A stretch of DNA of 40,566 bases, from assembly GCA_943354555.1 (NCBI GenBank), contig CALRCM010000005.1, positions 1 through 40,566 on the forward strand, read 5' to 3'. Position 1 is the first letter of the stretch. Each line of letters opens with the position of its first letter. Positions 4,928 to 37,668 of this stretch are shown here, in pieces. A program made the position numbers and the translations under genes. Origin of the DNA: Candidatus Peribacteria bacterium. Its GTDB lineage: Bacteria; Patescibacteriota; Gracilibacteria; Peribacterales; Peribacteraceae. The notes under the pieces are model-generated. The model searched no databases. It saw only the letters and a list, made by a program, of their open reading frames with translations, and was not told the DNA's origin.

Positions 4928-4950
4928 CGATAGCAATATGTCGCATGTCA

Positions 4951-4986
4951 CTCCGTAGCGGAAGATCGCGATCTTCCGCTACGGAG
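4951..4986. repeat. Perfect 36-bp palindrome between the A2M and pbpC genes
   Basis: CTCCGTAGCGGAAGATCG (4951-4968) is followed directly by its exact reverse complement (4969-4986), with no spacer. In RNA it would form a stem of about 16 bp with a 4-nt loop, between the A2M stop (4998) and the pbpC start (4927). It shares the terminal GTAG/CTAC with the GTAGAGACG family. No T run, so not a standard terminator. Confidence 0.9.
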
Positions 4987-10900: not shown

Positions 10901-10973
10901 CAAAACCGGTGGCTATGAGGATGCCCAGAGTGACCAAACCGGGTGCGAGAAATTTTCTGGGAGGAAGAGACAT
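4998..10973 (-). CDS. Bacterial alpha-2-macroglobulin (large thioester protease trap)
   Basis: Very large envelope protein (1991 aa) of the YfhM/MagD type, which entraps proteases by a bait region and a reactive thioester. Visible: basic N-terminus and membrane segment (about 12-30), a bacterial Ig-like repeat with SVQFSVPMDEQSV near residue 80, MG-type beta domains, a YTDRPIYRAGDTVQFKG macroglobulin motif, and the thioester GCAEQ with Cys 1508 and Gln 1511, followed by the alpha-helical thioester domain. There is no lipobox cysteine after the hydrophobic stretch, so it is probably membrane-anchored and not a lipoprotein as in E. coli. ATG 10973 is chosen because it gives the signal anchor; earlier in-frame codons add untypical sequence. 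Cotranscription with pbpC is likely. Confidence 0.95.
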   Translation of the reverse strand: MSLPPRKFLAPGLVTLGILIATGFAWMTGQTDPSTGASNAAASDRNQRISEASPLSVQFSVPMDEQSVKEHMVIEPKIEGTAEWSNHQTMVFQPASPLSRSGTYTLTISPEAVRRDKAVLGKAIVMRYFVAGPPRVSQQLPPQEEAGVALDQSVTLVFDRPMVALTTLSQRQNQFTDWPVTITPTIDGTWKWLSTTTAEFSPKKGFAPATVYRVNVPSGIKTIQGEVTTEDYSWNFTTQKPQIDRTNPYDGFSNSSPKTDIVLEFNLPMDLESVKSHIVLVRAVKEDLSDEALGAMRGTSPDPAVATLVPVTLSYGTKEENGKKGTDRSVIIVKPVSALTLNTQYALVAGKEITAIGGTLGTAEESIVRFHTAGPMEVRAVREEFGAIVLEFSNPYDSASIKKGVTITPKPAGWDDLTLEDNVWEGTTLYLYPTLKPSTKYSVTTNTALKDTFGQSSMSGKTLTFKTQAITPRVFIHSNGNFGVFEKGFAPVYYLNAVNVSKMEVGFAHLTLEEFLAEQKAGVNDWQHVPNLKGKDMEHHWTIVPGTKENEWKSIPFDLEEKLGTSLPAGIYALTLTAPEYKDTYNNGQYTEKIYFSISGTALTIKYSGHQALVWATDMATGAPVTGAQVALHDLQGKSKVNGKTDTEGFFETSINAEDFAIDGNTWTPEIWVSAKTATDFAFVGSSWTSGMGAYEFGMNEEWNPNRDGMWMMSELYTDRPIYRAGDTVQFKGIVRLKDKNGVLLPPKSTRRVRVDINDAGGNTIYSESLPINTYGSFSAKLPTDVHASLGMYWMNIALEESMDVANNYGSTTFQILAYRKPEYKVDVTFDKENYYAGDTAHAKVTGAYYFGMPMGEASVSWRAMSTDYFFNRFTDGWYSFSLEDNWCWYNCERESGIISSGDGKLQPDGTFTVDVPLPMEDKVLSQVLSLDVDVTDKSNQVVSMRASVPVHKAGIYVGIRPEEYAIEPGQEAPIGLVTVRPDGSPVGGQRIDITVFKRTWNTTRKKGVDGQYYYDNTPKDEKVSSHTATTEGDGKTTAKVQIPSGGQFRILAVVRDQSGREAQADTSVYAWSSTYVNWPHTNSNRMTVLADKPEYKVGDTAKILIQSPFQGENVSALVTIEREGIIKRTVITVKSSAQAIDIPITEDLIPNAYVSVVVVKPRIGETFNENGLDTGAPAFRIGYAKLKVENQSKGLTVGIEPDKRRYLPGETVSVTVATEDHTGKPVSAEVSLSAVDMSVLALTGYQLPNLLATFYSERGLGVRTAINLLYLLERFKPGSKGGGGGDLEEHARGTFKDTAYWNPSIITDANGRATVTFTLPDNLTTWKLVAIANTKDSLVGSMTTEIIETKRVIVRPVRPRFAVHGDRIELAALVHNGTEESQTFTVRLTGKGFTGASAAQTVTVKAGGQEKVRFPVTFGYEDNASFIFTAETEGMRDEVRESIPLYPFGIPQSTATSGFTEESTTEQIFVPVEEEVTALHANLTVSPTLATYLPKGLQYLVKFPYGCAEQTVSSFLPNIAVSTLQGFDAFQVVTDEELKTKITAGIERLLTFQRSDGGFGYWSDSRESNAYLSAYILHALHLTQAAGYSIDTALLSRTKAYLEKELRIRKYEKTVAVSERAYILYVLSETGAPDISLLSNLYLKREDLSLFGKAYLAMSFEKAGDHRRATDLLHTILAQAKVSPRGVQFEEKDNWWYRGLMNTNQRTNAIVLQALLRIDPQNELTPKIVRSMLLARDQGHWDTTQSTTASIFALVDYLKFTKELEGDFSATISVNEAEVGKAAFDASSILTKQEFAIPEKSLEHGQFNALEIGKEGKGRLYYDLLLSYFWKAREILPAEEGISVIREVTPIAGSPVHPTVGGTYKVHLTITVPEERHFVAIESPHPAGYEGIDFALQTSQQHLQDEVNGMQDSQGWWWDPSWYFTHKEFRDDQVFLFAENLPAGVYRYEYLVRATLPGTFLWRPARAYEMYFPEVFGNTESAVVEIRDQQ

Positions 10974-11007
10974 GAACGGATGGTGAAAGCACAATAAAAC
11001 ATTCCCG

Positions 11008-11013
11008 ATTGTA
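11008..11013 (-). promoter_or_regulatory. -10 box TACAAT upstream of the A2M gene
   Basis: TACAAT on the minus strand would place the transcription start about 28 nt before ATG 10973. The leader (tcaccatccgttc before ATG) has no Shine-Dalgarno. Confidence 0.4.
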
Positions 11014-11037
11014 CTGTGCTTTTTACCAGTGGCGTAT

Positions 11038-11463
11038 CTATTTCCCGCCAATCACACGGTCGAGGCTCCACTTGCCGCCGCCGGCGAGCGTGAGTGCAAG
11101 CGAGGTTCCGACAATGAGCAGCTGGTACTCAAATCCTCCGGCTCCTGCGGAGAACCCGTTCTTCCCATGCACGAGAGCGATGGCGCCGATCATGATGATA
11201 CCGATGGAGGCGGCGCAGAAGCGCGTGAGAAACCCAAGAATCAGTGAAAGTGCTCCTACGGATTCTCCAATAATAACGAGAGCGGCGATGATTGCGGGGA
11301 TACCCATTCCGGTCAGAAACCCCATGCTGCCTGCCCAGTTGCCATCACCCATCAGCCCGATTTTCTGCAGCCCGTGCGGGAGCATGATGCCTCCGACGGA
11401 TAGGCGCAGTACAAGAAGAGACCAAGAATCGGACGTTCTGAGGAATTTTTGGAGGGAACACAT
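11038..11463 (-). CDS. DoxX family membrane protein
   Basis: Integral membrane protein of 141 aa with four hydrophobic helices. It carries the DoxX pattern of a first helix with VLRLSVGGIMLPHGLQKI, Gly-rich helices (IPAIIAALVIIGESVGALSLILG; FCAASIGIIMIGAIALVHGK) and a last helix ending GGGKWSLDRVIGGK. DoxX-like proteins are linked to redox or thiol stress and to quinone-linked oxidation, but the activity of this one is unknown. ATG 11463 is preferred over ATG 11502: an extended -10 (TGtTACACT, 11499-11491 minus) lies inside the longer version, giving a pyrimidine-rich leader of about 20 nt. Divergent from the RlmI-like gene. Confidence 0.85.
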   Translation of the reverse strand: MCSLQKFLRTSDSWSLLVLRLSVGGIMLPHGLQKIGLMGDGNWAGSMGFLTGMGIPAIIAALVIIGESVGALSLILGFLTRFCAASIGIIMIGAIALVHGKNGFSAGAGGFEYQLLIVGTSLALTLAGGGKWSLDRVIGGK

Positions 11464-13965: not shown

Positions 13966-14949
13966 TCATTCCACCACAATCGTTCCCTGAAACTGCGAAC
14001 TCAAATGATTGTGATAGCCCCAGCTGCCGATCTGCGTGAACGTGTACATGTACGTTTCACCGTTGATTAGCGTGCGGTTGGCATCAAGACCGACGAGCGC
14101 TGTGTGCGCGGGGTGAGGATTACTTGCGACCCAAAGGCCATTGTTGCTCGTGTTCTTGAAGATGACGGTGTCACCCTTCTTTACGCGGAGGATCATCGGG
14201 GAAAATCCGTCCTCGGTGTAGGTCACGATATTCTCTTCGTTCTCTGTGCCACCTTGTTCTTCGGAAGGAAGGCGACCTAAGCCGGGGGTGCCGTACTTCG
14301 CGCGGGCTTGCATGACGATCTTCGCCACTTCCGCCCGGTTGATATTATCGGTCGGACGGAATGTTCCTGTCGCCTGGCCTTCGATGTCGGTGTCTCCTGA
14401 GACGACTGTATCGCGGCTTAGAGATTCGATGGAAGCAGCGAACTCGGTGCTGGAAGAGACATCATCGTAACGCGTATCGATCTGCGTACTCTCCATATTT
14501 ACATGGAATGCGGAGGTGAAGATGGCAGCGACCTCGGCGCGCGTGGCAGCCTTATCGAGTCGTGTCCGCTGATTGATGACAAGAAATGTTTCACCTTTGG
14601 CGACGGAGACATAGGGCGAAGCCCAGTGGAGGAAGCCGCTCTGGATTTTACTGGCATAGAGATCCTCATCGTACCCTGCGCCTTCCACGGCGATTTTCAG
14701 CGCCTCGCCGATGGTGATGTCGTTGGCCGGACCGTACTTGCCGGTGAGATTTCCGCGACTGTCTTTGTAGCCGCTCACGATGCCCGCCTCAGCTGCAGTG
14801 CGAACGTGGGTAGCGAACCACGCTGATTGCGAGACATCTGTAAAGACGACGGTTTTGCCGTCGATGATCACCTGAATGCCCATCGCCTGGGCCAGGATTG
14901 GGATTGTAAGAGCGATTGCCGATGCTACGGAGAGAAGGCGGTGATTCAT
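13966..14949 (-). CDS. Secreted SLH-repeat protein with C-terminal cupredoxin-like domain
   Basis: 327 aa. Signal peptide 1-22 (ends AQAMG). Three SLH-type repeats follow: about 36-80 (FTDVSQSAWFATHVRTAAEAG), 105-150 (ATRAEVAAIFTSAF) and 160-215 (FRPTDNINRAEVAKIVMQA), which normally tether proteins to cell-wall polymers. A short acidic linker leads to a cupredoxin-like beta sandwich (about 240-327) starting VTYTEDGFSPMILRVKKGDTV. Potential metal ligands are H279, H282, H313 and H315 (NPHPAH; WGYHNHLSSQFQG). The Cys of blue copper proteins is Asn 314 and the usual axial Met is missing. It is therefore a wall-attached, probably non-blue copper-binding or structural domain. The cognate polymer is unknown. 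Confidence 0.85.
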   Translation of the reverse strand: MNHRLLSVASAIALTIPILAQAMGIQVIIDGKTVVFTDVSQSAWFATHVRTAAEAGIVSGYKDSRGNLTGKYGPANDITIGEALKIAVEGAGYDEDLYASKIQSGFLHWASPYVSVAKGETFLVINQRTRLDKAATRAEVAAIFTSAFHVNMESTQIDTRYDDVSSSTEFAASIESLSRDTVVSGDTDIEGQATGTFRPTDNINRAEVAKIVMQARAKYGTPGLGRLPSEEQGGTENEENIVTYTEDGFSPMILRVKKGDTVIFKNTSNNGLWVASNPHPAHTALVGLDANRTLINGETYMYTFTQIGSWGYHNHLSSQFQGTIVVE

Positions 14950-25367: not shown

Positions 25368-25715
25368 TTATTTCCCATGTCTCCTCTCCACTCTGCTCCT
25401 TAGACTGGGCGTGTGCTTTTCCTTATAGCGCTTCACCTGCGGTTCCAGCTTTTCAATGCAGCGGTCGAGTGCTTCTACGGGATCTTTGCGGCGGGACTCT
25501 GCACGTAGTACAGCATTGGGAAGATCGAGTGTGATCATGACCTTCACTTCATCGCGGTCTTTCTTGGTCGCTCTGCGGTCGGACTCCACGCGGATGACGG
25601 ATGACTCGTCTTTCATCCGCTTGCAGTAGGTAGCGAGCTTGCCGATCTTGCGGGCGACAATAATCAATTGTGCATCGCTGTAGGCAAATCCCTGTTCGAA
25701 GTGTTGGACGTTCAT
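25368..25715 (-). CDS. hpf: Ribosome hibernation-promoting factor (short HPF/YfiA type)
   Basis: 115 aa: an S30AE domain that binds at the A and P sites of the small subunit and silences ribosomes in starvation. Visible: FEQGFAYSDAQLIIVARKIGKLATYCKRM (helix 1), VIRVESDRRATKKDRDEVKVMITLDLPNAVLRAES (beta strands) and RRKDPVEALDRCIEKLEPQVKRYKEKH (helix 2), with a basic tail. No long C-terminal dimerisation domain. The start is ATG 25715. A five-heptamer array begins 6 bp upstream, with TCAATT 6 nt before the ATG, the same spacing as at uvrC. Convergent with the DUF3048 gene, 3 bp apart. Confidence 0.9.
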   Translation of the reverse strand: MNVQHFEQGFAYSDAQLIIVARKIGKLATYCKRMKDESSVIRVESDRRATKKDRDEVKVMITLDLPNAVLRAESRRKDPVEALDRCIEKLEPQVKRYKEKHTPSLRSRVERRHGK

Positions 25716-25826: not shown

Positions 25827-25860
25827 TTGTCCAAATAGCCTTTTTTTGCTATAATAGAGG
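25827..25860 (+). promoter_or_regulatory. Promoter of the unknown cluster (TTGTCC-17-TATAAT)
   Basis: -35 TTGTCC (25827-25832), 17-bp spacer, extended TGC and TATAAT (25850-25855). The 20-mer TTTTTTTGCTATAATAGAGG (25841-25860) is repeated exactly at 30039-30058. Confidence 0.85.
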
Positions 25861-25880
25861 CGAAATACACATACCCACCC

Positions 25881-26108
25881 ATGATGGATCTCGCAGTACT
25901 GCAGACGATGATTCGTGAGAGTTTGCTCCTCACGGATGCCGAGCGTGCCTACTGGCTCGCCGGTCTCGCCCGCATGACCCCTCCGCAGATGGACCGGCTC
26001 AAATCCATTCTCGACCGCGCACGCGCTATTCCGTGGAATGCGGCACTGAAGCAGACCGTTGAAAAAATCGCTGGTGCCGCTGTGCAGGCCGCGACTACAG
26101 CCAAATAA
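25881..26108 (+). CDS. Cluster gene A: 75-aa helical protein, unrecognised
   Basis: First gene of the cluster. It encodes a small soluble helical protein: MDLAVLQTMIRESLLLTDAE, then RAYWLAGLARMTPPQMDRLKSILDRAR, and an Ala-rich end (KIAGAAVQAATTAK). The AERAYWLAGLARMTPPQ part resembles short helical hairpins that mediate protein contacts, but I recognise no family. ATG 25881 or 25884 may be used; the leader of about 20 nt (cgaaatacacatacccaccc) has no Shine-Dalgarno. It is followed 16 bp later by gene B, so cotranscription is likely. Confidence 0.7.
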   Translation: MMDLAVLQTMIRESLLLTDAERAYWLAGLARMTPPQMDRLKSILDRARAIPWNAALKQTVEKIAGAAVQAATTAK

Positions 26109-26124
26109 CATAACCCCATTTTTT

Positions 26125-27075
26125 ATGGCAAAAGAAAAAGCAGAACGCCAAGAGCTCACACCCGATCTTCGGAAGAAGAAGGAGGTCATACAGGAAGTAC
26201 AAGATCAGCTCGGCGAGCTCCGTAAGGAATTGAGTGTGCGCAACCGCAATACAGGAAAGCAGGATAAAGCGCCGGAGACAAAGCTGCAGGATTCTGATGT
26301 GCTGAAAGCACTGAAAACCGCGTGGTCGGACGCTTTTAAGGAGCACCAAAAAGAAGGTACTTCAAAAATGAAAGGCTTTAAGCAGTGGCAGGATTTTGAA
26401 AAAGAAATGGGTGGACTCGGTGCAGCCGATGATTTAGATAAGCTTCTTATTGCACTGGCGGATGCTTCTTCTGAGGGTGAGCAGGTCAAGGCTGAGGTGC
26501 CCTTGCGTCTTGAGCTAAACCAACTCAGTCAGGAGATCAGTACAGGACAGAAATACCTGGATACCTTTCCAGCGGCTCCGCTTGCGGAGCGTGCCGTAGA
26601 GCAGGTGGACAAGCTTCTAAGCAAACTTCCTCCGGAAATGCAGGAGTTTCTCCGCGCAGTCATTTTGGACTTCCTCGCGAACTTCGGTGAATCCTTTGGT
26701 ATGCTGGATTTCAGCGGCAGCATCCGCTTCCGCTCAGCCATGGAGCAGGCAAAAGGGGATACGGCAAGTCTCAAGAATTTGAAACCAGAGGAACAATTGG
26801 AAGTTGAAAAGGCGAGAGTCGATCCCGTTGTACGTTCCGCTCTTGAGGGCAAGTGGAAAGTGCTTCATAAGAAGTGGGCTCAGCGAAAGAAGACGTTTGA
26901 ATCGTCTGCACAGGGTCAAAAGTTTGCGGAATTCCCGCCGACGATTTTCGATGTCTATAAGAAAGAGGAAGTGAAGCCGACGCCTGCGCCTGCCACGACT
27001 CCTGCAATTACGGCTTTGCCTGGAACTCCTCCCAATGCTCCGTCAACGGTCACGGTCACTCCGGGTACTCCATAA
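26125..27075 (+). CDS. Cluster gene B: 316-aa coiled-coil protein with Pro/Thr tail, unrecognised
   Basis: Soluble, highly charged protein with no signal peptide and no membrane helix. N-terminal coiled-coil (about 5-45, LRKKKEVIQEVQDQLGELRKEL), a middle helical region with KQWQDFEKEMGGLG and LDKLLIALADASSEGEQ, one more hydrophobic patch at PPEMQEFLRAVILDFLANFGE, then a low-complexity tail (about 280-316) of Pro, Thr, Ala and Val that looks flexible. ATG 26125 is chosen: the frame is open upstream but overlaps gene A. The leader (cataaccccatttttt) lacks a Shine-Dalgarno. Function unknown; perhaps a scaffold for the membrane partners in the cluster. Confidence 0.75.
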   Translation: MAKEKAERQELTPDLRKKKEVIQEVQDQLGELRKELSVRNRNTGKQDKAPETKLQDSDVLKALKTAWSDAFKEHQKEGTSKMKGFKQWQDFEKEMGGLGAADDLDKLLIALADASSEGEQVKAEVPLRLELNQLSQEISTGQKYLDTFPAAPLAERAVEQVDKLLSKLPPEMQEFLRAVILDFLANFGESFGMLDFSGSIRFRSAMEQAKGDTASLKNLKPEEQLEVEKARVDPVVRSALEGKWKVLHKKWAQRKKTFESSAQGQKFAEFPPTIFDVYKKEEVKPTPAPATTPAITALPGTPPNAPSTVTVTPGTP

Positions 27076-27108
27076 ACGAATCCGCCAAAAACCAACAACC
27101 CCTAATAT

Positions 27109-28593
27109 ATGGCAGAAGAAAAAAATACACTAATATCGGCACCTAATGCCCCGCAACCTGATCCTATAAGGCAGGCGCTTGAGCAGTACAAGAAGGACAT
27201 GACCAAACCAGCCGATGCCGTGCAGAAACTGACGCGTATCGATTTGGTAAAATCTTCGTCATCTGTGAATACTCCGGATGCTTCTGCTCCTGCAATACAA
27301 CCACCAAAAACTAAACAGGATCGCGCCGGCGATGCACTGAAAATTCTGACGGCTGATGTCACCAAGTCTTCAGATGCAGTACAGCTTCTCACAAAACACG
27401 AGGAACTCGAAGCCTTGGCGAATAGTCTCCAGCCGGAACTTGCAAATAAGCGGCTCAATATGACCAAGGAACAGCTGGAGAGACTTACGTTTGATGCGAA
27501 TTTACAGGCTCTCGCTCTTAGGTCGCAGACAATAGAAGAGATCGTTGCTGCTTCAAAAGAAGAAGATAAAGATTCAAAAAAAACAGAAGGACTACACAGG
27601 CTAGATGCAGAGCAAAGCGTGGATGGAAATATCTCTTCACTCGAACAGCGTTACAAAACTCTCGAGCAATATGCAGATCGCAGGCCGGATTGGGTGCGGA
27701 AAACCGAAGGAACTGCCACAAAAGCATGGCAGGAGTTTCGCAAGCTTCCTGGTGTAGGAGACACACTGGATTGGATTGGAGGCATGACGGGGAGAACTCT
27801 CAACTCCGCAGGTGATCTCTGGGCATGGGTGAAAGGTGCAGTACTAAGCTCCGTTGCCAATGGCGATTTCACGAAGAATAAAAAGGTTATGGATTGGGCA
27901 AACATGAAGCTCAATGAAGAGGCCGTTGCTGAGGGCATTCAATTCGCTGTGAATAAAGCGAAGAAAGGACAGACGATCACTAAGATGCAAGGAGATAAGA
28001 AAGAAGGGGTGCCTCTCAAAGTGAAATTCGAACCGAAGTTCTCAGCAGATGACATCCGCGCATGGGAGGGCGTGCTTACGATAGGGAATTGGGGGAAGCT
28101 CACGCCTGCTGTAGCCACAGAGTACGTTGATGCGTATATCAGGAAATATGCCAATCAATACAAGGACAAAGAAATGCCGCTTTCCGTCGATGCTCTGGTG
28201 AAAGAAGGCCTTACAAAAAATCAACCGATTGCCGGTCCGCAGGCTGTACCAGAGGTGCAGTTCTCAGGAATTCCAAATCTAAAACTGAAGGTGAATCAGC
28301 GGTCTCAGCTTGAAGGACCTACGCCAGAATTTGATCTCAATGATGGGAAGGCAACGAAGGTGATTCTTGATAAAAACACTATTACTCTTAATAAGGATAA
28401 ATTTTCTGTGAAGAAAGACATGGGCGCTATTAGTGCTACCCTTGAGCCCAAGTCAGCAAATACTGGCGAACTTTTGGTGTACTGGGATGGAGCAACCCCT
28501 TTGAGACTGGATTACCTTGTTGCACAACTTACAAATACCCCGCCCAACCTCACAATTGGTGGATTCAGCTTTGACAAAATACCTACTACTTAA
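27109..28593 (+). CDS. Cluster gene C: 494-aa protein, unrecognised
   Basis: No signal peptide. The helical, charged N-terminal half has two similar stretches (PADAVQKLTRIDLVKSSSS near 35 and SSDAVQLLTKHEELEALA near 88), a possible internal duplication. An amphipathic or weakly hydrophobic part follows at about 210-255 (LPGVGDTLDWIGGMTG, AGDLWAWVKGAVLSSVA), then a region with KFSADDIRAWEGVLTIG, and a beta-rich C-terminus (about 385-494; IPNLKLKVNQRSQLEGP, KVILDKNTITLNKDKF, GELLVYWDGATPLRLDYL). A helical N-terminus plus a small C-terminal beta domain recurs in genes D and F. Start ATG 27109, no Shine-Dalgarno; 33 bp after B. Function unknown. Confidence 0.75.
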   Translation: MAEEKNTLISAPNAPQPDPIRQALEQYKKDMTKPADAVQKLTRIDLVKSSSSVNTPDASAPAIQPPKTKQDRAGDALKILTADVTKSSDAVQLLTKHEELEALANSLQPELANKRLNMTKEQLERLTFDANLQALALRSQTIEEIVAASKEEDKDSKKTEGLHRLDAEQSVDGNISSLEQRYKTLEQYADRRPDWVRKTEGTATKAWQEFRKLPGVGDTLDWIGGMTGRTLNSAGDLWAWVKGAVLSSVANGDFTKNKKVMDWANMKLNEEAVAEGIQFAVNKAKKGQTITKMQGDKKEGVPLKVKFEPKFSADDIRAWEGVLTIGNWGKLTPAVATEYVDAYIRKYANQYKDKEMPLSVDALVKEGLTKNQPIAGPQAVPEVQFSGIPNLKLKVNQRSQLEGPTPEFDLNDGKATKVILDKNTITLNKDKFSVKKDMGAISATLEPKSANTGELLVYWDGATPLRLDYLVAQLTNTPPNLTIGGFSFDKIPTT

Positions 28594-28607
28594 TTCCCTA
28601 TCATTTT

Positions 28608-29735
28608 ATGGCATCTCCCGAAAAACCAGTACCCACTCCTCAGACAATTGTTGATAGCTTTACTGTTGCAGGTTCGCTTGAAGCAGCACAAGGTCTTCTC
28701 AATACCATTCCAACAACAAAAGCAGAGTTAGTTGTTTTGAAAGATGCAGCCATGGCTCGGTCAGAGCAACTGAAAGCATCTGCTGAAGGGCAGATCAATA
28801 CGGGATTGGCTTTCTTAGAGAAGCAGCTTGCTGACCGTCTAAAACAGTTTGAAAAGAGGCCGATTGATGCTGTCGGAAACGTGCTTGGTGATGCAGTAAT
28901 TGGCGCAGGCAATATCACTGGAGAAACCATCAAGACTTCCGGTGAGCAACTGGGAAAAGCCTTTGATACAGCGAAGCAGGTTGTCTATAACGAAGCAGAA
29001 GCATTTAGCAATAAATCTGGTTGGGAGCGTGCACAGCAAGTTGGTGGTCTTACGGCTCTTGCCGTCCTTGTTGGCTATCCTATCTATAAGCTTGCCGAAA
29101 AAATTTCGAATGCTGGAAAAAAAGACGGCGAGAAGCCGGGATTCTTCCGTAATTTCCTTAAAGTTACTGGCATTCTTGCGCTCTCCACAGCTGCCGTGAA
29201 TTTCCTTGGTCCGCGCGTGCTTGCGGCACAGCAAGGGGGTGGAAAGCAGAGTCCGGATGCTTCAAAAACCAAGGTGGATAAACCTAAGGATGATGCCAAG
29301 CCCAATCCACCGCCTGAAAATGAGCCAAAAGATCCGGGTGTTTCTTCTACAGATAAAAAGAATAATTTTATTGGGAGAGCATTCGAGTTCGATGGTAAGA
29401 AAATGGGGATTGTTGATTTAGGTGGAAAGAAGCTTCTTAAAGTTGATGGAAAGACGTATGCCGTACATTTGATTGGCAATGGTTTTATAGAAAACGCTCA
29501 ATTCTCTTTAGTGGGTAATGTCATTAATCGTATTACTGATCTGCAGTTTGCCTTAACAAATTTACGGCTTTCGTATGATGGGCTCAGTGGGAAGCCCGGA
29601 TATGTCAGTATTGGAGAGCAGGAGTGTAAACGTCTTGTTCGAGACATTGTCGTGAGAAAAGTCATGAAAATATCTGTGAATCACAATGGCAAGGATGAGA
29701 ACGTAGCTCTTGAATTTATTCCTACAAACTCATAG
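28608..29735 (+). CDS. Cluster gene D: 375-aa two-helix membrane protein, unrecognised
   Basis: Helical N-terminal part (about 1-140, with KASAEGQINTGLAFLEKQLADRLKQ), then a membrane hairpin: TM1 145-166 (VGGLTALAVLVGYPIYKLAEKI without its last residues), a basic loop (NAGKKDGEKPGFFRN) and TM2 183-201. A Pro/Lys/Asp linker (about 207-245) leads to a C-terminal beta domain (FIGRAFEFDGKKMGIVDLGG, LLKVDGKTYAVHLIGNG, NHNGKDENVALEFIP). The hairpin with its basic loop of about 15-20 residues matches the first membrane hairpin of the giant protein F in layout. No enzyme motif seen. Starts 14 bp after C, with no Shine-Dalgarno. Confidence 0.78.
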   Translation: MASPEKPVPTPQTIVDSFTVAGSLEAAQGLLNTIPTTKAELVVLKDAAMARSEQLKASAEGQINTGLAFLEKQLADRLKQFEKRPIDAVGNVLGDAVIGAGNITGETIKTSGEQLGKAFDTAKQVVYNEAEAFSNKSGWERAQQVGGLTALAVLVGYPIYKLAEKISNAGKKDGEKPGFFRNFLKVTGILALSTAAVNFLGPRVLAAQQGGGKQSPDASKTKVDKPKDDAKPNPPPENEPKDPGVSSTDKKNNFIGRAFEFDGKKMGIVDLGGKKLLKVDGKTYAVHLIGNGFIENAQFSLVGNVINRITDLQFALTNLRLSYDGLSGKPGYVSIGEQECKRLVRDIVVRKVMKISVNHNGKDENVALEFIPTNS

Positions 29736-29741
29736 CAAATC

Positions 29742-29999
29742 ATGATCAACACCCCAACACCAAACATCGATACTCCGCAGTCACAATCCGCTGTAGGGTG
29801 GATGCTGCGCCAAACGCGCGATGGGATCCGGCAGGTGCTTGTGGGTGCGGGTACTCTTCTTGCGACGGGTGTAGGTGGGGTGGTCGGTGCGAGTGGGAAG
29901 ATTATCGGAGGGGCGCTCGATGGTACCAGCCGTGGAATACGCGATGCGCTTGGGGGTGGACAGAGATCGGGCTCTCCATTGGCCCCACAAGGGGCTTGA
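29742..29999 (+). CDS. Cluster gene E: 85-aa glycine-zipper protein, unrecognised
   Basis: A polar N-terminus (MINTPTPNIDTPQSQSAVGW) and an amphipathic helix (MLRQTRDGIRQ) lead into a Gly-rich hydrophobic stretch (about 32-66; VLVGAGTLLATGVGGVVGAS, then KIIGGALDG) with repeated GxxxG spacing, followed by a polar Gly/Ser tail. Glycine zippers pack tightly in membranes and occur in pore-forming or assembly subunits. It begins 6 bp after D and is probably the last gene of the first operon; a GC hairpin (GCCCC-ACAA-GGGGC, 29982-29995) overlaps its end. Function unknown. Confidence 0.7.
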   Translation: MINTPTPNIDTPQSQSAVGWMLRQTRDGIRQVLVGAGTLLATGVGGVVGASGKIIGGALDGTSRGIRDALGGGQRSGSPLAPQGA

Positions 30000-30038
30000 T
30001 GGCATGAATTAAAAATGGAATACGTGGTTAAAAGAGTG

Positions 30039-30058
30039 TTTTTTTGCTATAATAGAGG
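30039..30058 (+). promoter_or_regulatory. Second copy of the cluster promoter, upstream of gene F
   Basis: The same 20-mer as at 25841, with TATAAT at 30048-30053 and extended TGC. The -35 is weak (near 30024-30030). Predicted leader about 17 nt (ttaaacacatcacac before the ATG), no Shine-Dalgarno. Confidence 0.8.
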
Positions 30059-30076
30059 GATTTAAACACATCACAC

Positions 30077-33000
30077 ATGACACAACCTGCTGCACCAGAA
30101 ATCCTCGAAAAACAGGCAACATCTATCGTCGATGCACTCTGTATTGATCAAGACACAGATGCGAAACGCAAAGCGCTTCTGGAGTCCATTCAGACAGCGC
30201 GGGCAAAGGATCCCTCTATTTGGATCACCATTAGCAAAAAACTTTCTTCTATGGAGAAGGGGCCGCAGCGAGATATAGCGAATACAAATCTAGGTAAATT
30301 GCGTGATCGTATTGATGCAAATGTTGGGTTTGCGGATGCTGAGGTTGCTGTACAAACATTGCGCGATGAACTTGATCTTCTCCAAAAAAATCTTTCTTCA
30401 CCGGTTCCATCTACCGCAAATGCGGCAACAGAAAATAGCGCTCCAAAGACGGATCAGGCGCCAAAAACATTACCAGCCATAACGAAAGGTGTAACGTATG
30501 AGGGGGAGTTTCTGCCTTCGTCGGAGAAGCCACCTGCAGCAGATCTTGCAAAGACAGAGGTGGTGTCACCGCTGCAGCAAAAGAAATCTGAGACGTTATT
30601 TGACCCAACTTCATGGTCTCCCGAGCATCAGCAGCAGGCGAAGGATATTGCGATTGTGGGGGGGGTGGTGGTGGTCGGAGCAATTGTCCTGAGTAAGCTT
30701 TCCAGTAAAGCAAAGGGTATCTTTGGGAAGATTAAGATGGCTATAGGCGTAGGCGTGGCCGGATTTATTGGATATTTCGGCTTAAAAGCACATCGTGAAA
30801 TTCAGGCAGCGAAGGAGGAAATTGAAGCAGCAAAGCAAGCTTTGGAAAAAGGGAGGAAGGCCATAGAGAAGACAGGGGAAAACGCTGCCCAGCTTGTTGC
30901 GGAGGCGAAGGTTCGTGCTCCAGAGGTTCGCGAACAAACCGAAGATGCTGCCGAAGTTCTAAAATACAATATGCTCGCGCGAGGATTACTGATTTTTAAC
31001 GAGCAGCAGAAGAGTGAAGCAGATGTGGGTGATGAGGAAATAGACCAAGACGGAGTGTCAACCGCTCTGCAGGCATTGCGAGGTCAGAAGTTGGGAGAGC
31101 TTGAGAATGTTGCCAGTCCTGAGAAAACGACTTCTCAGATCGATGCAGGGTATCGCTTTGCCAAGGCCGTAGCTTCCGAATGGCTTTCCAAACACCCTGA
31201 CCAAAAAGATCGAACATTGGGTGACGTCATTCAACCCATGCGTGCATCCATGCGCATATTGGCAAATGCAGAGGATATCGCGAAAAAAGGTGGTTCCATC
31301 ATACCTTCTCCTCAGGAGTGGCAGCAGGATCTGCGGACACTTTTTTCCGGTGTTATGGATGAGTTTAAGGAAAATGCTGATGCATATGATGAAGCTCTCA
31401 ATTCTTTGGATGTGCCAAGGAAAGACCGAGTAGCACTTCTTTCCTACTGTGCCACACATAAGGACGATCCTTTGTCGGGAAATCATGAAAAATTTGCACC
31501 AGTACTTACGCATCTCTCTCAAAGGCTATCGACAGATGGTGAGTGGGTGGCACAACTCGCTCAGTATGGTCATCTGGAGAAGTTTAAGAATGTATTAAAT
31601 ACGGCCTCAGAAAATCTGAGTATTGGTGAAGCTTTGCAATTACATCTACTTTTGCAGTCAGTACCGAAAGAGAATGAAACGGGAAAGTATTCTTCCGTTT
31701 CCGATACAGATCCGCATATTGCCTTTGGACTTCAGATGCTGGCTATGTCGATGGTGGGGAGGAGAAACGAAGAACTTTCTGAGGAGATGAAAGTGATGTT
31801 GCTTGTGAAGGGCGTGAGTCAGGCAGGGGAGCTTGCGGCTGACAAGATCGAAGATGTTAACTTGCCTCCTGAAAGTTGGCAGCTTCTCAGTAAAACGTCC
31901 GGGTTCATCATGAAAGGATTTTGGGACCGCCTAAAGCATCTTGGAAACCTGTCTTACTATGGTATCAACTATGCATATCAGGAGGCTCCGGTTCCAACGA
32001 GTGTGCTTGCGGGTGCAGGCGGATTATATGCAGCACCAAAGATTATGAGGGGTGCACAAAGAGTTGCTGGTGCATTGGAACATAACGCTGTAGAAAGCTT
32101 TGTTTCTGCTGGGGATGATGCCGTGTTAAAGGCAAGGGCAGCGAAATATGGGATCACCAACCTTCGTGATGCTAAGAAAGTGCAAAAGGCGGCTCAGGCA
32201 TTTCGTGGTGCAGAGGGTCTCAAGTCGCCCCTTAGAATGATTCCAGGTTATGGAATTTATAATGAGCTCATGGGGACCAGGGCCGTAGCACTGCGCACAT
32301 TTAGGAAGACGCTTGATGATGCAAAAAGGGTGGCACCTTGGCAAAAAGCAATGTTCCGTACGGCACTCGTTGCCCAGGCAGCAGGAACCTATGCGGATTA
32401 TCAGGAATACAAAGAGCAAGGTCAGCAGCGTCAGGCTGTCGAAAAGCATGCCAACGAATCTTTGCGGGATCTACAGAAGCAATTCAGCAATTCACAAATC
32501 TATGAGAATCTTGGCAATGGAATGTATAAGCATAAGGAGTCTGGTGTGGAGATTTCCCTGCAGCAGTCCAAGCGCGAGCTTAAGGGTGCAGGCACAGTCA
32601 TGGATGCGCACGAAAATGCGCAGATTGCACGGATGACCTCTTCCGGGGGATTTCTTGTGCTTACTGCTTGCCTTGGTGCTGCGCGTATCGCAGGTCCCGT
32701 AGGACTTGTAGTTGCTGGAACAGAAGTTGTGGTACGCATTGGCATCAATGCATGGGAACAGGGGAAAGTGCGTACATTTCTCAAAGATTGTCCGCCGTGG
32801 GTTCTGGTCACACTGGGTGCTCAGGGACTCACCAATATGTCGGAATACGACCTGATGACGAAGGCATCGGGGTGGATGGTGTCGGATATGTATCCTTCTC
32901 TCGATGATAAGGATAAGCCTGAGATACGGAAGAAGATGTTCTTCGCTCTCTTTTGTAGTGACTTGCAGCGTTATGCTCCTGAGGCTGCAGCTGAGATTAT

Positions 33001-35011
33001 GGCAGGTATGGAGAATGGACCGGCGCTTGATGCTTTCTATGCGAATGATTTTGAAAAAATTGTTCTGCCACTTCTTGCCGTACAGCTCTTTCAAGCTGCA
33101 AAAGACGGCGGTGTCTCCTGGGAGGCATTTCGCGCAGGGGATATCGACTCGGGAAACATTCTCAGTAATCCGGACGTTTCCCTTGTGGAAGTCCGTCAGG
33201 CAATGCGTGAAAGTACCATCCTCTATCTGCAGCACGTGCGCGAGAAGAGGTTCCTTGATCATGTAGAACTCCTTAAAAAGAGTGCAAACGAGGAAGGCGA
33301 AATCGATGAGCTGCTTCTGGAAGTCACTGAGGAGCTCGGCGAGGAGAAGGTATTTGGAAAAACGCTCAATGAAGTGAATGAAGATCTGCAAAAAAACAAA
33401 GGCGCTACCCGTACAGAGCTTCTTCTCTCAACAATGCAAAGTCGGTTGAGCACTTCTGCCAGTGATACTCGAGCGGAAAAGCTATCGAAGAATCCCACAT
33501 TGTTTTCTATAACTTCCAGAGAGATTTCTGGTTTGTCGCAAGAGTTCAATCTCGCTAACCGTGCTTCACTTATTGCGCTCATCCATGATCCTATTTTACG
33601 CGAGAGGATGGGTACAGTCTTTCCCCAGACAACCGATGAACCAGAGGGGCGCATTTATGAGCCTTGGTGGAGCACCTCTCCGGAAGCCATGCGACAGAAA
33701 TTAGAAGCTCCTGTTGGCGTAGATCGTGGAACAGATGTTCTTCTTGCGCGTGTAGCAGCAAACAATGTTCTTGCCCCACTTGGTCGCAAGGTTGCCGACA
33801 ATGCCACTGCGCAGGAGGCCGAATACAATATTACCGAGGGGGCAGTCGAGTCTCTATCTAAGCGCGGAGAGTCGCCTAGCCACACGCAAGACGATACGCT
33901 GGGAGGTCAACTCTATAGTGGAGAAACTGTTCGGCCTTTGGTTTTCTCCAAGCTGGAGCCGCGTTTCAATATTTCTTCAGATGAGCCAAAGCTGAGATCC
34001 CTCTGCAGGATGGTAAGCCGGCCCAACGCGAAGGACGAAGCATTCGCTTTGAAAAACGCCAAGGCAGTGTTTTTCGAAGGAAATGTGCTTCCCAGTGGGC
34101 ATGTCGTTGTTCTTGCGACATTTGTATACGCTGATCTTGATCGTGCGAAAGATGCAAAACCATCACTGCAGGTTGTTCAGCAGGCAGCGGCAACGGCGGC
34201 ATCTGCCAATGCTGATTTTCAAGGGAGAGGCCAGGCCATTGCTCTTTCTTCTGGTGAGTTTCTCAAGCAGAAAGGGGCAGAGGCTATGCTCAAGCAGACG
34301 GGGGATGTGTGGGAGAAAAACCGTCCACAGCGTGAGGCCCTCGCAAAGCTTAAAGAAGATAAGAAAGCGCAGCGTGAAGCAGCCGAAGCAACCCGCGTCA
34401 AAACAGAAAAAGAACAGATGCAGATCGACAGTAAAGATGCACAGGCAAAAGCGAAGGAGAAGCCGGGAACGCTGTTCAAGGATCCGGAGGGGCGTTGGTA
34501 TGTTGGGTATCACAAGGATCATGGACTTATCTACATTCAACCTCCCGATAGCTCAACTGCACCGGCATTTACCACCGCAGAGGCAGAACGGGACAAGACC
34601 TACACCATCGTTGAATATAAGGATAAGGCTTACAAACTTAATTCTCTCTATGTAACGAAAATTGAGCAACAGGCAGGTATTTCTTCGGACGTCATCAATC
34701 AGGTATTGGCCATGCCGATACCCGGTAAGCCAGAAGAGTCCGTAGAAAAAGTTCTCACCGTATTCGTGAAAAATATGCACTCCCGCGAAAGTGCTCAGAT
34801 TTTCCGATCGGTTCTCGGTCTCTATAAGCAACTCCAGACAGACGATGAGCGGAGGCTTTTCCTGAGCGATCTTCGAGCACGTATCTATAGTGAAACGCGC
34901 GTCGGGAACAAGGAAGGTGAGTACCTTTCACAGAAGGTGTTTCAAGCACAGATATTGCCTGCTCTGCTGAAACGCATTGCTTCTTTTGGAGAGGAAAGAA
35001 AAGCAGCATAA
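30077..35011 (+). CDS. Cluster gene F: giant 1644-aa membrane protein, unrecognised
   Basis: No family recognised. Order of parts: helical charged N-terminus (1-110), Pro/Ala/Thr linker (about 111-185), membrane hairpin TM1 191-206 and TM2 221-236 separated by a basic loop (KLSSKAKGIFGKIK), coiled coil 237-300 (AAKEEIEAAKQALEKGRKAI), a long helical region with a hydrophobic segment near 642-657 (SVLAGAGGLYAAPKIM), a strong membrane region about 857-893 (GGFLVLTACLGAARIAGPVG and onward), another mostly helical domain to about 1400, a Lys/Glu/Ala coiled stretch (about 1425-1465) and a small beta domain (about 1468-1530; LFKDPEGRWYVGYHKDHGLI, YTIVEYKDKAYKLNSLYV). No signal peptide or catalytic motif. 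It shares its promoter with the A-E operon. A run of eight Gs (30658-30665) lies in TM1. Confidence 0.85.
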   Translation: MTQPAAPEILEKQATSIVDALCIDQDTDAKRKALLESIQTARAKDPSIWITISKKLSSMEKGPQRDIANTNLGKLRDRIDANVGFADAEVAVQTLRDELDLLQKNLSSPVPSTANAATENSAPKTDQAPKTLPAITKGVTYEGEFLPSSEKPPAADLAKTEVVSPLQQKKSETLFDPTSWSPEHQQQAKDIAIVGGVVVVGAIVLSKLSSKAKGIFGKIKMAIGVGVAGFIGYFGLKAHREIQAAKEEIEAAKQALEKGRKAIEKTGENAAQLVAEAKVRAPEVREQTEDAAEVLKYNMLARGLLIFNEQQKSEADVGDEEIDQDGVSTALQALRGQKLGELENVASPEKTTSQIDAGYRFAKAVASEWLSKHPDQKDRTLGDVIQPMRASMRILANAEDIAKKGGSIIPSPQEWQQDLRTLFSGVMDEFKENADAYDEALNSLDVPRKDRVALLSYCATHKDDPLSGNHEKFAPVLTHLSQRLSTDGEWVAQLAQYGHLEKFKNVLNTASENLSIGEALQLHLLLQSVPKENETGKYSSVSDTDPHIAFGLQMLAMSMVGRRNEELSEEMKVMLLVKGVSQAGELAADKIEDVNLPPESWQLLSKTSGFIMKGFWDRLKHLGNLSYYGINYAYQEAPVPTSVLAGAGGLYAAPKIMRGAQRVAGALEHNAVESFVSAGDDAVLKARAAKYGITNLRDAKKVQKAAQAFRGAEGLKSPLRMIPGYGIYNELMGTRAVALRTFRKTLDDAKRVAPWQKAMFRTALVAQAAGTYADYQEYKEQGQQRQAVEKHANESLRDLQKQFSNSQIYENLGNGMYKHKESGVEISLQQSKRELKGAGTVMDAHENAQIARMTSSGGFLVLTACLGAARIAGPVGLVVAGTEVVVRIGINAWEQGKVRTFLKDCPPWVLVTLGAQGLTNMSEYDLMTKASGWMVSDMYPSLDDKDKPEIRKKMFFALFCSDLQRYAPEAAAEIMAGMENGPALDAFYANDFEKIVLPLLAVQLFQAAKDGGVSWEAFRAGDIDSGNILSNPDVSLVEVRQAMRESTILYLQHVREKRFLDHVELLKKSANEEGEIDELLLEVTEELGEEKVFGKTLNEVNEDLQKNKGATRTELLLSTMQSRLSTSASDTRAEKLSKNPTLFSITSREISGLSQEFNLANRASLIALIHDPILRERMGTVFPQTTDEPEGRIYEPWWSTSPEAMRQKLEAPVGVDRGTDVLLARVAANNVLAPLGRKVADNATAQEAEYNITEGAVESLSKRGESPSHTQDDTLGGQLYSGETVRPLVFSKLEPRFNISSDEPKLRSLCRMVSRPNAKDEAFALKNAKAVFFEGNVLPSGHVVVLATFVYADLDRAKDAKPSLQVVQQAAATAASANADFQGRGQAIALSSGEFLKQKGAEAMLKQTGDVWEKNRPQREALAKLKEDKKAQREAAEATRVKTEKEQMQIDSKDAQAKAKEKPGTLFKDPEGRWYVGYHKDHGLIYIQPPDSSTAPAFTTAEAERDKTYTIVEYKDKAYKLNSLYVTKIEQQAGISSDVINQVLAMPIPGKPEESVEKVLTVFVKNMHSRESAQIFRSVLGLYKQLQTDDERRLFLSDLRARIYSETRVGNKEGEYLSQKVFQAQILPALLKRIASFGEERKAA

Positions 35012-35053: not shown

Positions 35054-35872
35054 GTGTCTCTGAGCTTCAGCCAACTTTCTTGCTATAAGCGCTGTCCCTG
35101 TCAGTACGAGTATTGCTACATAAAAAAAATTCCCAAAGGTGTTTCCGAGGCAGAGGCGTTCGGGTCGGCAATCCATAATACGTTGAAAAAGTGGGGGGAG
35201 TCGGAAATTGAAAATGGAAAATTGAAAATTGAAAATTCAGAAAAGCAATTGGAGATGTTTGCGAAAGAGATTCCTTCTGAAAGTCGACAATTGACAGCTC
35301 AAAGCCTGATCGCCCTTTGGCACCAGAGTTGTCCGACGAATGCGTACGCCACACGTTTTGAAGCCGATGCGGCGCGGATGCGGGGAGAGCAGTTGATGGA
35401 ATTGTTTTATACATGGTGGAGTGAGCGGCCACGCGAGGTTGTTGCGGTGGAGAAGGGATTCTCGATCGCAATAAATGATTCGTCACAGAATCAACCATTG
35501 CAGAAGATTATTCTCACGGGCCGCTTCGATCGCATCGCGCGCACACCGGAAGGTTTGCATGTCATCGATTTCAAGACCTCACTGCCACGTACTCAGGATG
35601 ACGTGGATGCCGATTTGCAGCTGAGTATCTATGCACTTGCGTTGCAGCAGGATTTCGGTGAGCTTCCTACTGCATTATCGTTTTTGCATCTGACAGAAGA
35701 CGGCATTGTGGAAATGCATACGCATCGTAGTGAAGGACAGGTGCGAGATTCCATCAAACAGATCACGGCATTCCATGGGCGGATGGAGAACAAGGATTTT
35801 CATCCGACACCGTCATTGATGGTATGCAAGAGGTGTCCCTACAGAGGGATTTGTGATGTGGCGGCGGTGTAG
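35054..35872 (+). CDS. RecB/Cas4-like PD-(D/E)XK nuclease with Fe-S cysteines
   Basis: 272 aa, single-domain exonuclease-like protein. The nuclease core is seen in LTGRFDRI (D159) and VIDFKTS (D172, K174), then QLSIYALALQQDFG. Four cysteines placed as in Cas4/AddB Fe-S nucleases: one near the N-terminus in SCYKRCPCQYEY (C14) and three at the end, C258-x2-C261-x5-C267 (CKRCPYRGIC). No CRISPR array or cas gene is nearby, so a role in DNA repair or recombination is more likely. A five-heptamer array at 35206-35240 is translated as SEIENGKLKIENSE near residues 51-63. GTG start; the reading frame ends with the TAG supplied by hairpin copy C. Confidence 0.88.
   Translation: MSLSFSQLSCYKRCPCQYEYCYIKKIPKGVSEAEAFGSAIHNTLKKWGESEIENGKLKIENSEKQLEMFAKEIPSESRQLTAQSLIALWHQSCPTNAYATRFEADAARMRGEQLMELFYTWWSERPREVVAVEKGFSIAINDSSQNQPLQKIILTGRFDRIARTPEGLHVIDFKTSLPRTQDDVDADLQLSIYALALQQDFGELPTALSFLHLTEDGIVEMHTHRSEGQVRDSIKQITAFHGRMENKDFHPTPSLMVCKRCPYRGICDVAAV
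35206..35240. repeat. Five-heptamer array (AATTGAA) inside the nuclease gene
   Basis: AATTGAA, AATGGAA, AATTGAA, AATTGAA, AATTCAG: 35 bp kept in frame, encoding a polar charged stretch. Confidence 0.9.
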
Positions 35873-35906: not shown

Positions 35907-35933
35907 AGAGACGTCACAGCGTGACGTCTCTAC
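35907..35933. repeat. GTAGAGACG hairpin, copy D
   Basis: AGAGACGTCAC (35907-35917), loop AGC, GTGACGTCTCT (35921-35931), then AC. Tandem with copy C. The inner four pairs are TCAC/GTGA. Confidence 0.88.
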
Positions 35934-35950
35934 GGTGCACGGTTTTATTG

Positions 35951-35956
35951 TACAAT
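35951..35956 (+). promoter_or_regulatory. -10 box TACAAT, 6 nt before ATG 35963
   Basis: TACAAT then ccttcc then ATG; leaderless spacing, just downstream of hairpin copy D. Confidence 0.6.
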
Positions 35957-35962
35957 CCTTCC

Positions 35963-36388
35963 ATGCACCTCCTCCTTCGCAATCTCCTTCACGATTACCT
36001 CTTCACGATTCCGCTTGCTGTTCTTGTCCTCACGGAGATCGTTAAGATGTTCATCGAGGATTTCCGGTCGGGTCACTGGCATATGGCGCTGTTTCGTCCG
36101 GGGGGGTTTCCAAGTTCGCATTCCGCTTTCGTTACGTCCCTGCTCATTATTGTCGGGTACAAACTGGGTCTGCAATCTGTGGAGTTCGCCATCGCCTTCG
36201 TCTTTGCCGGTGTCGTGTGGTATGACGCGATGAGTGTGCGCAGGGCAGTAGGGGAGCAAGCGAAGGCTCTCAATCAGCTCCAGCACTTTAGGCATTTCGC
36301 CGAGCGGCTGGGGCATTCGTTTGTGGAGGTAGCTGGGGGCATTGCGTTTGGGGCCATTGTGACGGCAGTGGGAATAGCAGTGAGCTAG
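35963..36388 (+). CDS. Divergent PAP2-family membrane protein (DUF212/YuiD)
   Basis: 141 aa with about four membrane segments. The DUF212 signature is complete: LLTEIVKMFIED-like first helix (LVLTEIVKMFIEDFRSGHW), RPGGFPSSHSAFVTSL with the phosphatase-like SSH motif, VVWYDAMSVRRAVGEQAKALNQL, and LGHSFVEVAGGIAFG. Divergent PAP2 proteins are presumed to act on polyprenyl or lipid phosphates; this is not shown directly. ATG 35963 gives the family start; TACAAT 6 nt upstream implies a leaderless mRNA. The stop codon lies inside the heptamer array that precedes proS. Confidence 0.9.
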   Translation: MHLLLRNLLHDYLFTIPLAVLVLTEIVKMFIEDFRSGHWHMALFRPGGFPSSHSAFVTSLLIIVGYKLGLQSVEFAIAFVFAGVVWYDAMSVRRAVGEQAKALNQLQHFRHFAERLGHSFVEVAGGIAFGAIVTAVGIAVS

Positions 36389-36426: not shown

Positions 36427-37668
36427 ATGTTGCAGTCTCAGCTTTTCACCAAAACATCGAAAGATACGCATGCCGACAGCGACAGCATCAATGCGGATCT
36501 TCTTACACGTGCGGGGTTTATCAGCAAAACCATGGCGGGGGTGTATTCGTTTTTGCCTCTCGGGTACCGCGTCATCCGCAAGATCGAGCAGATCGTGCGT
36601 GAGGAAATGGACGGCATCGGTGGGCAGGAGATTTTGATGTCGGCACTTGCTCCGAAGGCAGTCTGGGAAAAGACCGGACGGTGGAAGACCATGGATGTGC
36701 TCTTCAAAGTTCCCGCCGCAGGAGATCAGGAGTACGCGCTCAATCCCACGCACGAGGAGATTGTCGCACCGATCGCACGCACGTTCCTGCGTTCGTACCG
36801 CGACCTTCCGTTCGCCTGTTACCAGATCCAGACAAAGTTCAGAAACGAGCTTCGTGCCAAGTCCGGAGTCCTTCGTGGTCGCGAATTCATTATGAAAGAT
36901 TTGTATTCCTTCCATCAGGATATCGCTGATCTCGACAGATATTATGCCATTGCTCAGGGTGCCTATGACCGTATCTTCGCACGATTGGGATTGGAGAATC
37001 GCACCTTCCTTACATACGCATCCGGTGGAACGTTCTCGCAGTATTCTCATGAGTATCAGGTGGTGCTGCCGCAGGGGGAAGATCAGATCTTCGTGAGCAT
37101 TGAAGCCGAGAAACAGGGAAAACGTATAGCTGTGAATAAAGAGATTTTTGAAGAGGGGAAAACAGTTTGTCCTGTGACGGGAGGAAAAGAATTCCGTGCC
37201 GAGAAGGCGTCCGAGGCGGGAAACATCTTCAAGCTTGGGACAAAGTTCTCTGAGCCTTTCGAGCTGCAGTTCGCCGACGAAGCAGGCAAGCTTTGTACGC
37301 CGGTGATGGGGTGCTATGGCATTGGCATCTCGCGACTTATGGGAATAGTTGCGGAAGCATGTGCCGATGAGGCAGGTCTTCGCTGGCCTGAGGCCATTGC
37401 GCCCTATCGGGTGCATATTCTTTCACTTGCACGGTCCCGCGATGAAGAGTCCTGGAAGCTTGCTCATGATCTTGCGAAGAGATTGCCGGAAAGTCTCCTC
37501 GATGATCGCATCGATCTCGGAGCAGGGGCACGTTTTGCCGACAGTGACCTCATCGGCATTCCGCGACGCATCGTCATTTCCCCAAAAAGTCTGACGGCTG
37601 GTGGAGTTGAAGTGAAAGATCGTATGACGGGCGCTGTCAACATCGTTGCGTTGGATGCTTTGGTGTGA
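36427..37668 (+). CDS. proS: Prolyl-tRNA synthetase, short form without editing insertion
   Basis: 413 aa; charges tRNA-Pro. Class II motifs in order: motif 1 around GVYSFLPLGYRVIRKIEQIV, motif 2 TKFRNELRAKSGVLRGREFIMKD, motif 3 GCYGIGISRLMGIVAE, then the anticodon-binding domain (VHILSLARSRDEESWKLA, GAGARFADSDLIGIPRRIVI). After FSQYSHEYQVVLPQGEDQIF the enzyme lacks the INS editing domain of about 180 residues found in long bacterial ProS, so Ala-tRNA-Pro proofreading would need another protein. Standard length for the short form. ATG 36427 lies 6 nt after TAAACT. The stop is TGA. Confidence 0.95.
   Translation: MLQSQLFTKTSKDTHADSDSINADLLTRAGFISKTMAGVYSFLPLGYRVIRKIEQIVREEMDGIGGQEILMSALAPKAVWEKTGRWKTMDVLFKVPAAGDQEYALNPTHEEIVAPIARTFLRSYRDLPFACYQIQTKFRNELRAKSGVLRGREFIMKDLYSFHQDIADLDRYYAIAQGAYDRIFARLGLENRTFLTYASGGTFSQYSHEYQVVLPQGEDQIFVSIEAEKQGKRIAVNKEIFEEGKTVCPVTGGKEFRAEKASEAGNIFKLGTKFSEPFELQFADEAGKLCTPVMGCYGIGISRLMGIVAEACADEAGLRWPEAIAPYRVHILSLARSRDEESWKLAHDLAKRLPESLLDDRIDLGAGARFADSDLIGIPRRIVISPKSLTAGGVEVKDRMTGAVNIVALDALV

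Follow-up and report, generated by a model that had tools for sequence, protein, structure and literature searches.

The window, by which we mean the whole 40,566-nucleotide stretch that was analyzed, is contig C5 of a Peribacteraceae genome of 1.16 Mb in 70 contigs. It contains a row of six open reading frames, here called A to F, and the features of the locus are as follows.

25368..25715, minus strand: HPF/S30AE gene, conserved left flank of the locus.
25841..25860, plus strand: extended −10 promoter copy before A, TTTTTTTGCTATAATAGAGG.
25881..26108, plus strand: gene A, 75 aa, small and helical; the best conserved member, with 73-88% identity in the genus.
26125..27075, plus strand: gene B, 316 aa counted from the ATG at 26125; helical, with a Pro/Thr-rich tail.
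27109..28593, plus strand: gene C, 494 aa; relatives occur both with and without F.
28608..29735, plus strand: gene D, 375 aa; helical N-terminus, then a membrane hairpin, then a variable C-terminal domain.
29046..29207, plus strand: predicted membrane hairpin of D, aa 147-200, with basic loop GKKDGEKPGFFRN.
29742..29999, plus strand: gene E, 85-aa hydrophobic glycine-rich peptide with five GxxxG steps at about aa 35-57.
30039..30058, plus strand: second copy of the 20-mer, before F, TTTTTTTGCTATAATAGAGG.
30077..35011, plus strand: gene F, giant protein of 1644 aa.
30644..30769, plus strand: predicted membrane hairpin of F, aa 190-231, with basic loop KLSSKAKG.
32288..34471, plus strand: alpha-type core of F, aa 738-1465.
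32558..32788, plus strand: second hydrophobic helix pair, in the F core, aa 828-904, around ARIAGPVGLVVAG.
35054..35872, plus strand: stand-alone PD-(D/E)XK nuclease gene of the Cas4/AdnAB type with four invariant Cys; the usual end of the row.
35921..36388, plus strand: DUF212 gene, conserved right flank, followed by ProRS at 36427-37668.

Open reading frame calls placed all six genes on the plus strand at the sizes and positions given in a sequence-only reading of the window, with B counted from its ATG. That reading had set the cluster at 25827-35011, which holds for the six genes and leaves out a usually adjacent seventh, the nuclease gene at 35054-35872. Genes A to E are tightly packed, as had been claimed, with gaps of 6-33 bp, and 77 bp separate E from F. 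The two promoter copies are identical over all 20 bases, and a scan allowing up to 4 mismatches found no third copy in the window; the idea that A and F share the same promoter was thereby confirmed. The F promoter copy was also present in other species of the genus; in other genera, it was not seen before the giant or next gene of the relatives inspected. Moreover, the GxxxG steps of E and the Pro/Thr-rich stretch of B agree with the earlier description of a glycine-zipper peptide and a flexible tail, respectively.

A profile search with each protein had been named beforehand as a possible refutation of one shared machine, and it did not assign the genes to unrelated known families. Neither A to F nor their orthologues from other genera matched a known family; for A to F, no score in Pfam, NCBIfam, PHROGs, or PADLOC reached its cutoff, and the best in the first three fell far short. 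There was accordingly no match to phage families in PHROGs or to anti-phage system models in PADLOC, where the top score was PglZ for C (E = 0.033). A ZapG-like match (E = 0.039), NifW, and similar matches were discarded as subthreshold, and F peptides scanned against the genome's contigs gave no match. AlphaFold2, run from 17 sequences, modeled F aa 738-1644 with a pLDDT of 79. Foldseek found nothing significant for this model in PDB or among viral models (BFVD), or in PDB for a model of a C relative from locus L113 (best E values of about 1 and 0.1, from multidomain models whose domains were not searched singly). A second look with VIA-align returned long-helix matches only, with Z below 8, which is chance level; rows for Tc-type toxin, SMC/Rad50, prefoldin, and 14-3-3 were left unused as long-helix or helical-bundle matches at that level. 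No subunit has a signal peptide, and A to D and F have no N-terminal hydrophobic segment, in agreement with the earlier statement that none has a signal peptide. We conclude that A to F, no part of which falls in a described family, are new by sequence. Orphan operons restricted to one family are common in these organisms, and giant variable membrane-associated CPR proteins, like module-exchanging loci between conserved flanks, are already known in general terms.

The row recurs at one chromosomal site. The closest genome, G004 of the same genus, contains all of A to F, ordered as in the window and with its counterparts of the nuclease and ProRS after them; identity to the window was 54% for F and 59% for D, which points to fast change in these two, and 90%, 88%, and 76% for ProRS, HPF, and the nuclease. 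Across genera, the site is bounded by HPF on one side and by the nuclease, DUF212, and ProRS on the other, and the flanks enclose an A-like small gene, with which the operon starts, genes in the B, C, and D positions, a small gene in the E position, and a giant gene. Profile comparison recognized relatives of B in other genera, and hhalign between genera linked B, C, and D relatives in matching positions (B16-D64, 97.5%; C28-C14, 96%; D29-D47, 96%). Of 74 family genomes, 29 have the alpha-type F core; across 379 genomes of the phylum, no genome beyond the family has it. The C profile matched in 17 of the 74 and in no other genome of the class. In family f3 (L158), the neighbors by eye were dUTPase, RelA/HD-, Xer-, and ComEC-like genes, with no A-F-like genes among them.

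A further set of 36 nuclease-anchored Peribacteria-type loci was fetched independently, and the genomes found through the nuclease bear the names Candidatus Peribacteria, Peribacteraceae, or Peregrinibacteria. An open reading frame of at least 999 aa lay upstream of the nuclease on the same strand in 21 loci, in 19 of them immediately before it; by core type, seven were alpha, eight beta, and six neither. Most other loci had shorter rows, several with A-C, B-C, or A-B-C and no giant, and two were ended by contig ends. F was ruled out as an obligatory backbone because A-B-C(-D) persists without the giant gene in several genomes. The genes are thus not scattered among relatives, the other finding named beforehand as a refutation, but keep the same order in the same place, and we conclude that the recurrence of this order in several genera exceeds chance.

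We note several further arrangements in the family. A second, paralogous alpha-core giant lies in the same genome as the first, at L024 3631-8310 (minus strand), adjoining LepA, with a gene at 8320-9066 (minus strand) upstream; in several genera, a D-like membrane protein precedes this second giant site, in some cases together with a 140-aa gene. In locus L155 (3105-17796; G366), the nuclease is preceded by three large genes of 1245, 955, and 2675 aa, of which the second and third fall in the F cluster. A 133-aa protein at L121 1931-2332 (plus strand) contains an A-like domain (ERxYWxxxLPxMTPEQ), an A-like stretch recurs within open frames of about 110-250 aa in many family genomes, and such proteins may be the source of gene A. 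A contig labeled Kiritimatiellales (L182, from 9995 onward and upstream) encodes both a nuclease of Peribacteria type (48% identity) and a beta giant and is probably misbinned Peribacteria.

D and F appear to be built on one plan. In F, the hairpin (aa 190-231) is followed by a helical middle, the core with its second hydrophobic pair, a small beta unit at about aa 1464-1521, and the last helices, and family members range from about 955 to 3052 aa. D repeats this plan in small, with a helical N-terminus, the hairpin, and a variable C-terminal domain, and in each protein two hydrophobic segments surround a K/R-rich loop. D loops in the window's genus read GEKPGFFRN and GEKPGFLRK, and those of five F relatives from other genera read EKPGFLRK, EKPGFFKK, EKPGAVRR, ENPGAVRR, and EHPGFVRR; among all called open reading frames of the examined loci, the EKPGFxR-type motif was limited to D and F. 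Moreover, hhalign matched D to those F proteins at 79% over the hairpin stretch. The membrane hairpin with basic loop that D and F had been said to have in common is therefore upheld by the motif and by hhalign, although it is visible through relatives and not within the window. A C-terminal beta domain common to C, D, and F, also proposed earlier, did not withstand comparison: profile-profile comparison found no mutual link among the three, the C-terminus of C matched only the C-terminus of B proteins from other genera (92%), D matched D, and the beta unit of F is not at its end.

The core of F differed between sister species. In the window's genus, g1, the F proteins of G001 and G003 aligned with the F group of the window only over the N-terminal 150-230 residues, and their cores are of a different family. 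The alpha and beta core profiles matched disjoint sets of proteins, with an hhalign value between them of 12%. Genus g1 has alpha in G000, G004, and G002 and beta in G001 and G003; genus g349 has alpha in G422 and G424 and beta in G423, with N-termini 42% identical. We conclude, from the sequences compared, that F combines a related N-terminal anchor with a core of at least two unrelated types, and that within at least two genera these types replace one another at the same locus.

The other subunits varied with the core. In g349, identities of A, B, C, and D were 81, 55, 59, and 62% between the alpha species and 62-63, 28-29, 34-35, and 27-28% between alpha and beta species, whereas the flank controls were 63 versus 67% (nuclease) and 77 versus 77-79% (ProRS). 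In this one triad of species, divergence of the predicted A to D proteins tracks the F core type and that of nuclease and ProRS does not. The pattern in g1 was more mosaic than that in g349: C of G002 (L030 6009-7652, minus strand) joins a G001-like middle to a C-terminal part similar to that of the window. Together, the g349 and g1 patterns point to recombination between conserved flanks combined with coupling among subunits. As context for A to F, it is mainly the very large proteins that vary between strains of Ca. Peribacter riflensis (PMC4736985).

If A to F were independent orphan genes that are merely co-transcribed, with synteny that is inherited and not functional, it would fit that E- and D-position genes are barely similar between genera. 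The order held across genera despite very low identity, the hairpin motif of D and F, and the divergence of A to D with the F core type all speak against this, and we consider it highly improbable. The same lines of evidence, namely order and site, the D-F motif, and the g349 divergence, support the earlier proposal of one membrane-associated machine. We conclude that A to F probably build one complex in which the proteins are physically associated.

Membrane topology was approached through charge and cysteine content. In 32 automatically found hairpins, a few of them doubtful, the mean charge was +3.2 in the loop and +0.4 and +1.2 in the flanks; by the positive-inside rule, the loop would therefore be cytosolic and both ends outside. 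A to F contain 7 cysteines in 2989 residues, where 37 were expected at the window's own rate, and median cysteine content was 0.36% in the F family and 0.00% in the B/C/D group, against 1.25% in the background. Equally cysteine-poor were 3% of soluble non-membrane background proteins versus 28% of those with an N-terminal hydrophobic segment. Cysteine depletion and basic loops thus hint, short of proof, at an extracytoplasmic location. A, B, and C, however, have neither an export signal nor a membrane segment, and for these three the depletion cannot be read simply as a sign of export. Moreover, the hairpins of D and F begin at about aa 147-190, and placing the ends outside needs N-terminal tails of 145-190 residues that cross the membrane without a signal. 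A composition classifier scored F as cytosol-like, a result given little weight for its poor cross-validation (45% of exported proteins recognized). On balance we lean, without certainty, toward D and F lying in the envelope or outside.

Elsewhere in the window, two proteins of 2017 aa (4998-11051, minus strand; cysteine-poor, at 0.20%) and 793 aa (2570-4951, minus strand) have an N-terminal hydrophobic segment and are likely large exported proteins, and an S-layer-homology protein with a cupredoxin-like domain is encoded at 13966-14949 (minus strand).

A lineage-specific structural complex of membrane or wall, serving as an envelope or cell-shape scaffold with no part in recognition, would be consistent with giant, mostly helical proteins, membrane hairpins, and cysteine depletion, as well as with the vertical site and with the second, paralogous locus that several species have in their genome. 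A housekeeping part, however, should neither swap its core for unrelated types within genera nor be missing from related species, and we regard such a scaffold as rather unlikely.

The nuclease that ends the row matched PDDEXK_1 (E = 3e-33) and Cas4 (E = 4e-7) in Pfam, Cas4/DruK nuclease models in PADLOC, and AdnAB-type UvrD helicase-nucleases in PDB. Residues H41, D159, D172, K174, and Q181 and cysteines C14, C258, C261, and C267 were invariant in 14 relatives, such that the gene is predicted to encode the PD-(D/E)XK catalytic residues plus the four cysteines of the Cas4/AdnAB-type iron-sulfur nucleases. Catalytic and four-Cys positions are thus common to the Peribacteraceae nuclease and to Cas4 and AdnAB-AddB, but the former has no fused helicase and, in the examined loci, no adjoining cas genes, its neighbors being HPF, DUF212, and ProRS. 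It stands alone as a gene in Peribacteraceae (45 of 74 genomes), and outside the family, in the same class, the domain lies within open frames of about 950-1000 aa. Nuclease and gene A co-occurred with an odds ratio of 5 (Fisher p=0.004 over 74 genomes, with no correction for relatedness). A role as an obligatory subunit was dismissed, as the nuclease occurs without the cluster (G015 and L156) and the cluster without the nuclease (G027 L031 and G427 L164). We conclude that the nuclease often accompanies the cluster in the operon but is at most a candidate subunit.

The main rival to an envelope location builds on this partner: F and D would form a scaffold on the inner membrane face that recruits the nuclease against incoming phage or imported host DNA, as a cytosol-facing complex for DNA handling or defense. 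The nuclease follows the cluster in most loci with gaps mostly under 60 bp, its catalytic and four-Cys positions are intact, its co-occurrence with the cluster is as given above, A to F lack signal peptides, and fast evolution fits defense too. Zorya-type systems combine a nuclease with membrane complexes that have long intracellular tails, and they share with A to F a membrane anchor, a long helical part, and a nuclease in the operon. Unlike Zorya, however, A to F match no PADLOC model, and the site is a fixed core-genome place and not a defense island. The separate occurrences of nuclease and cluster, and the nuclease relatives within longer frames in other families of the class, also count against this rival, which we judge unlikely. 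Were the location cytosolic and the nuclease involved, the locus would point to an undescribed membrane-bound DNA-handling system.

The alpha core contains a glycine-rich hydrophobic helix pair, and hydrophobic peaks occur at the corresponding place of the beta cores. One use of such a pair would be delivery or pore formation, in which the pair inserts into the membrane of a target and the complex transfers material from cell to cell; a host-dependent lifestyle has been proposed for the group (PMC4736985). No secretion ATPase, tube, or effector domain was found nearby, however, and the structural matches are the long helices at chance level described above, making this reading improbable.

Where a part meets partners that change, be they neighbor cells, hosts, or phages, unrelated cores are expected to replace one another at a single site, and for this reason we prefer a role in envelope recognition or attachment. 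The likeliest of the readings considered is an envelope complex under diversifying selection that faces other cells or phages. A to F would be subunits of one lineage-specific, membrane-tethered Peribacteraceae complex in which D and F grip the cytoplasmic membrane by related hairpins with basic loops, E may be a small glycine-rich membrane partner, and A, B, and C may be partners outside the membrane. F would carry a large, mostly helical core with the second hydrophobic helix pair, which sister species appear to have swapped for an unrelated type at the same locus. The complex might be placed chiefly at the outer face or within the envelope and serve recognition of, attachment to, or exchange with partner cells or phages, and cassettes swapped between the conserved flanks would diversify it. 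We give this best explanation as a whole, a membrane-tethered complex mainly of the outer face or envelope with a diversifying role in recognition, attachment, or exchange, a probability of roughly 0.4. The envelope-facing recognition or attachment role taken by itself is tentative: the usual operon neighbor is a nuclease of cytosolic type, and the searches brought up no domain for adhesion, sugar binding, or reception.

A to F could also be an undescribed, membrane-anchored six-subunit machine specific to Peribacteraceae, with a giant scaffold whose exchangeable cores (alpha, beta, and probably more) set the partner or target, A to D co-adapted to it, and the nuclease processing captured or admitted material. 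This is conceivable but doubtful, and that the function of A to F is none of the known ones is likewise open to considerable doubt.

Polymorphic loci such as those for surface polysaccharides are exchanged between conserved flanks. The A-F site shares with them a variable block between conserved genes and unrelated alternative modules behind a related anchor, but it encodes a putative protein complex with a giant protein, and no effector/immunity pair was seen. F further resembles the very large strain-variable proteins of Ca. Peribacter riflensis (PMC4736985) and the giant membrane proteins of Vampirococcus lugosii (PMC8080830) in its size, membrane association, variability between strains or species, and occurrence in host-dependent CPR relatives. 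Signal peptides, known adhesion domains, or a high Cys content characterize most of those giants, whereas F has no signal peptide or known domain, is Cys-poor, and lies in a conserved multigene operon. The locus thus offers a defined candidate for how CPR bacteria, most of whose large proteins are unassigned, recognize, hold, or exchange material with partner cells, with a fixed chromosomal address, co-evolving subunits, a hairpin signature, and natural alternative cores in sister species. Two predictions are that the core type tracks the partner or phage and that D and F co-purify.

Finally, a multi-spanning membrane protein and a large partner, which constitute protein clusters 9 and 10 and occur in several genera, lie next to the A-F site and in most cases on the other strand (L030 7989-11792, L031 2-3674, and L038 1727-5604).
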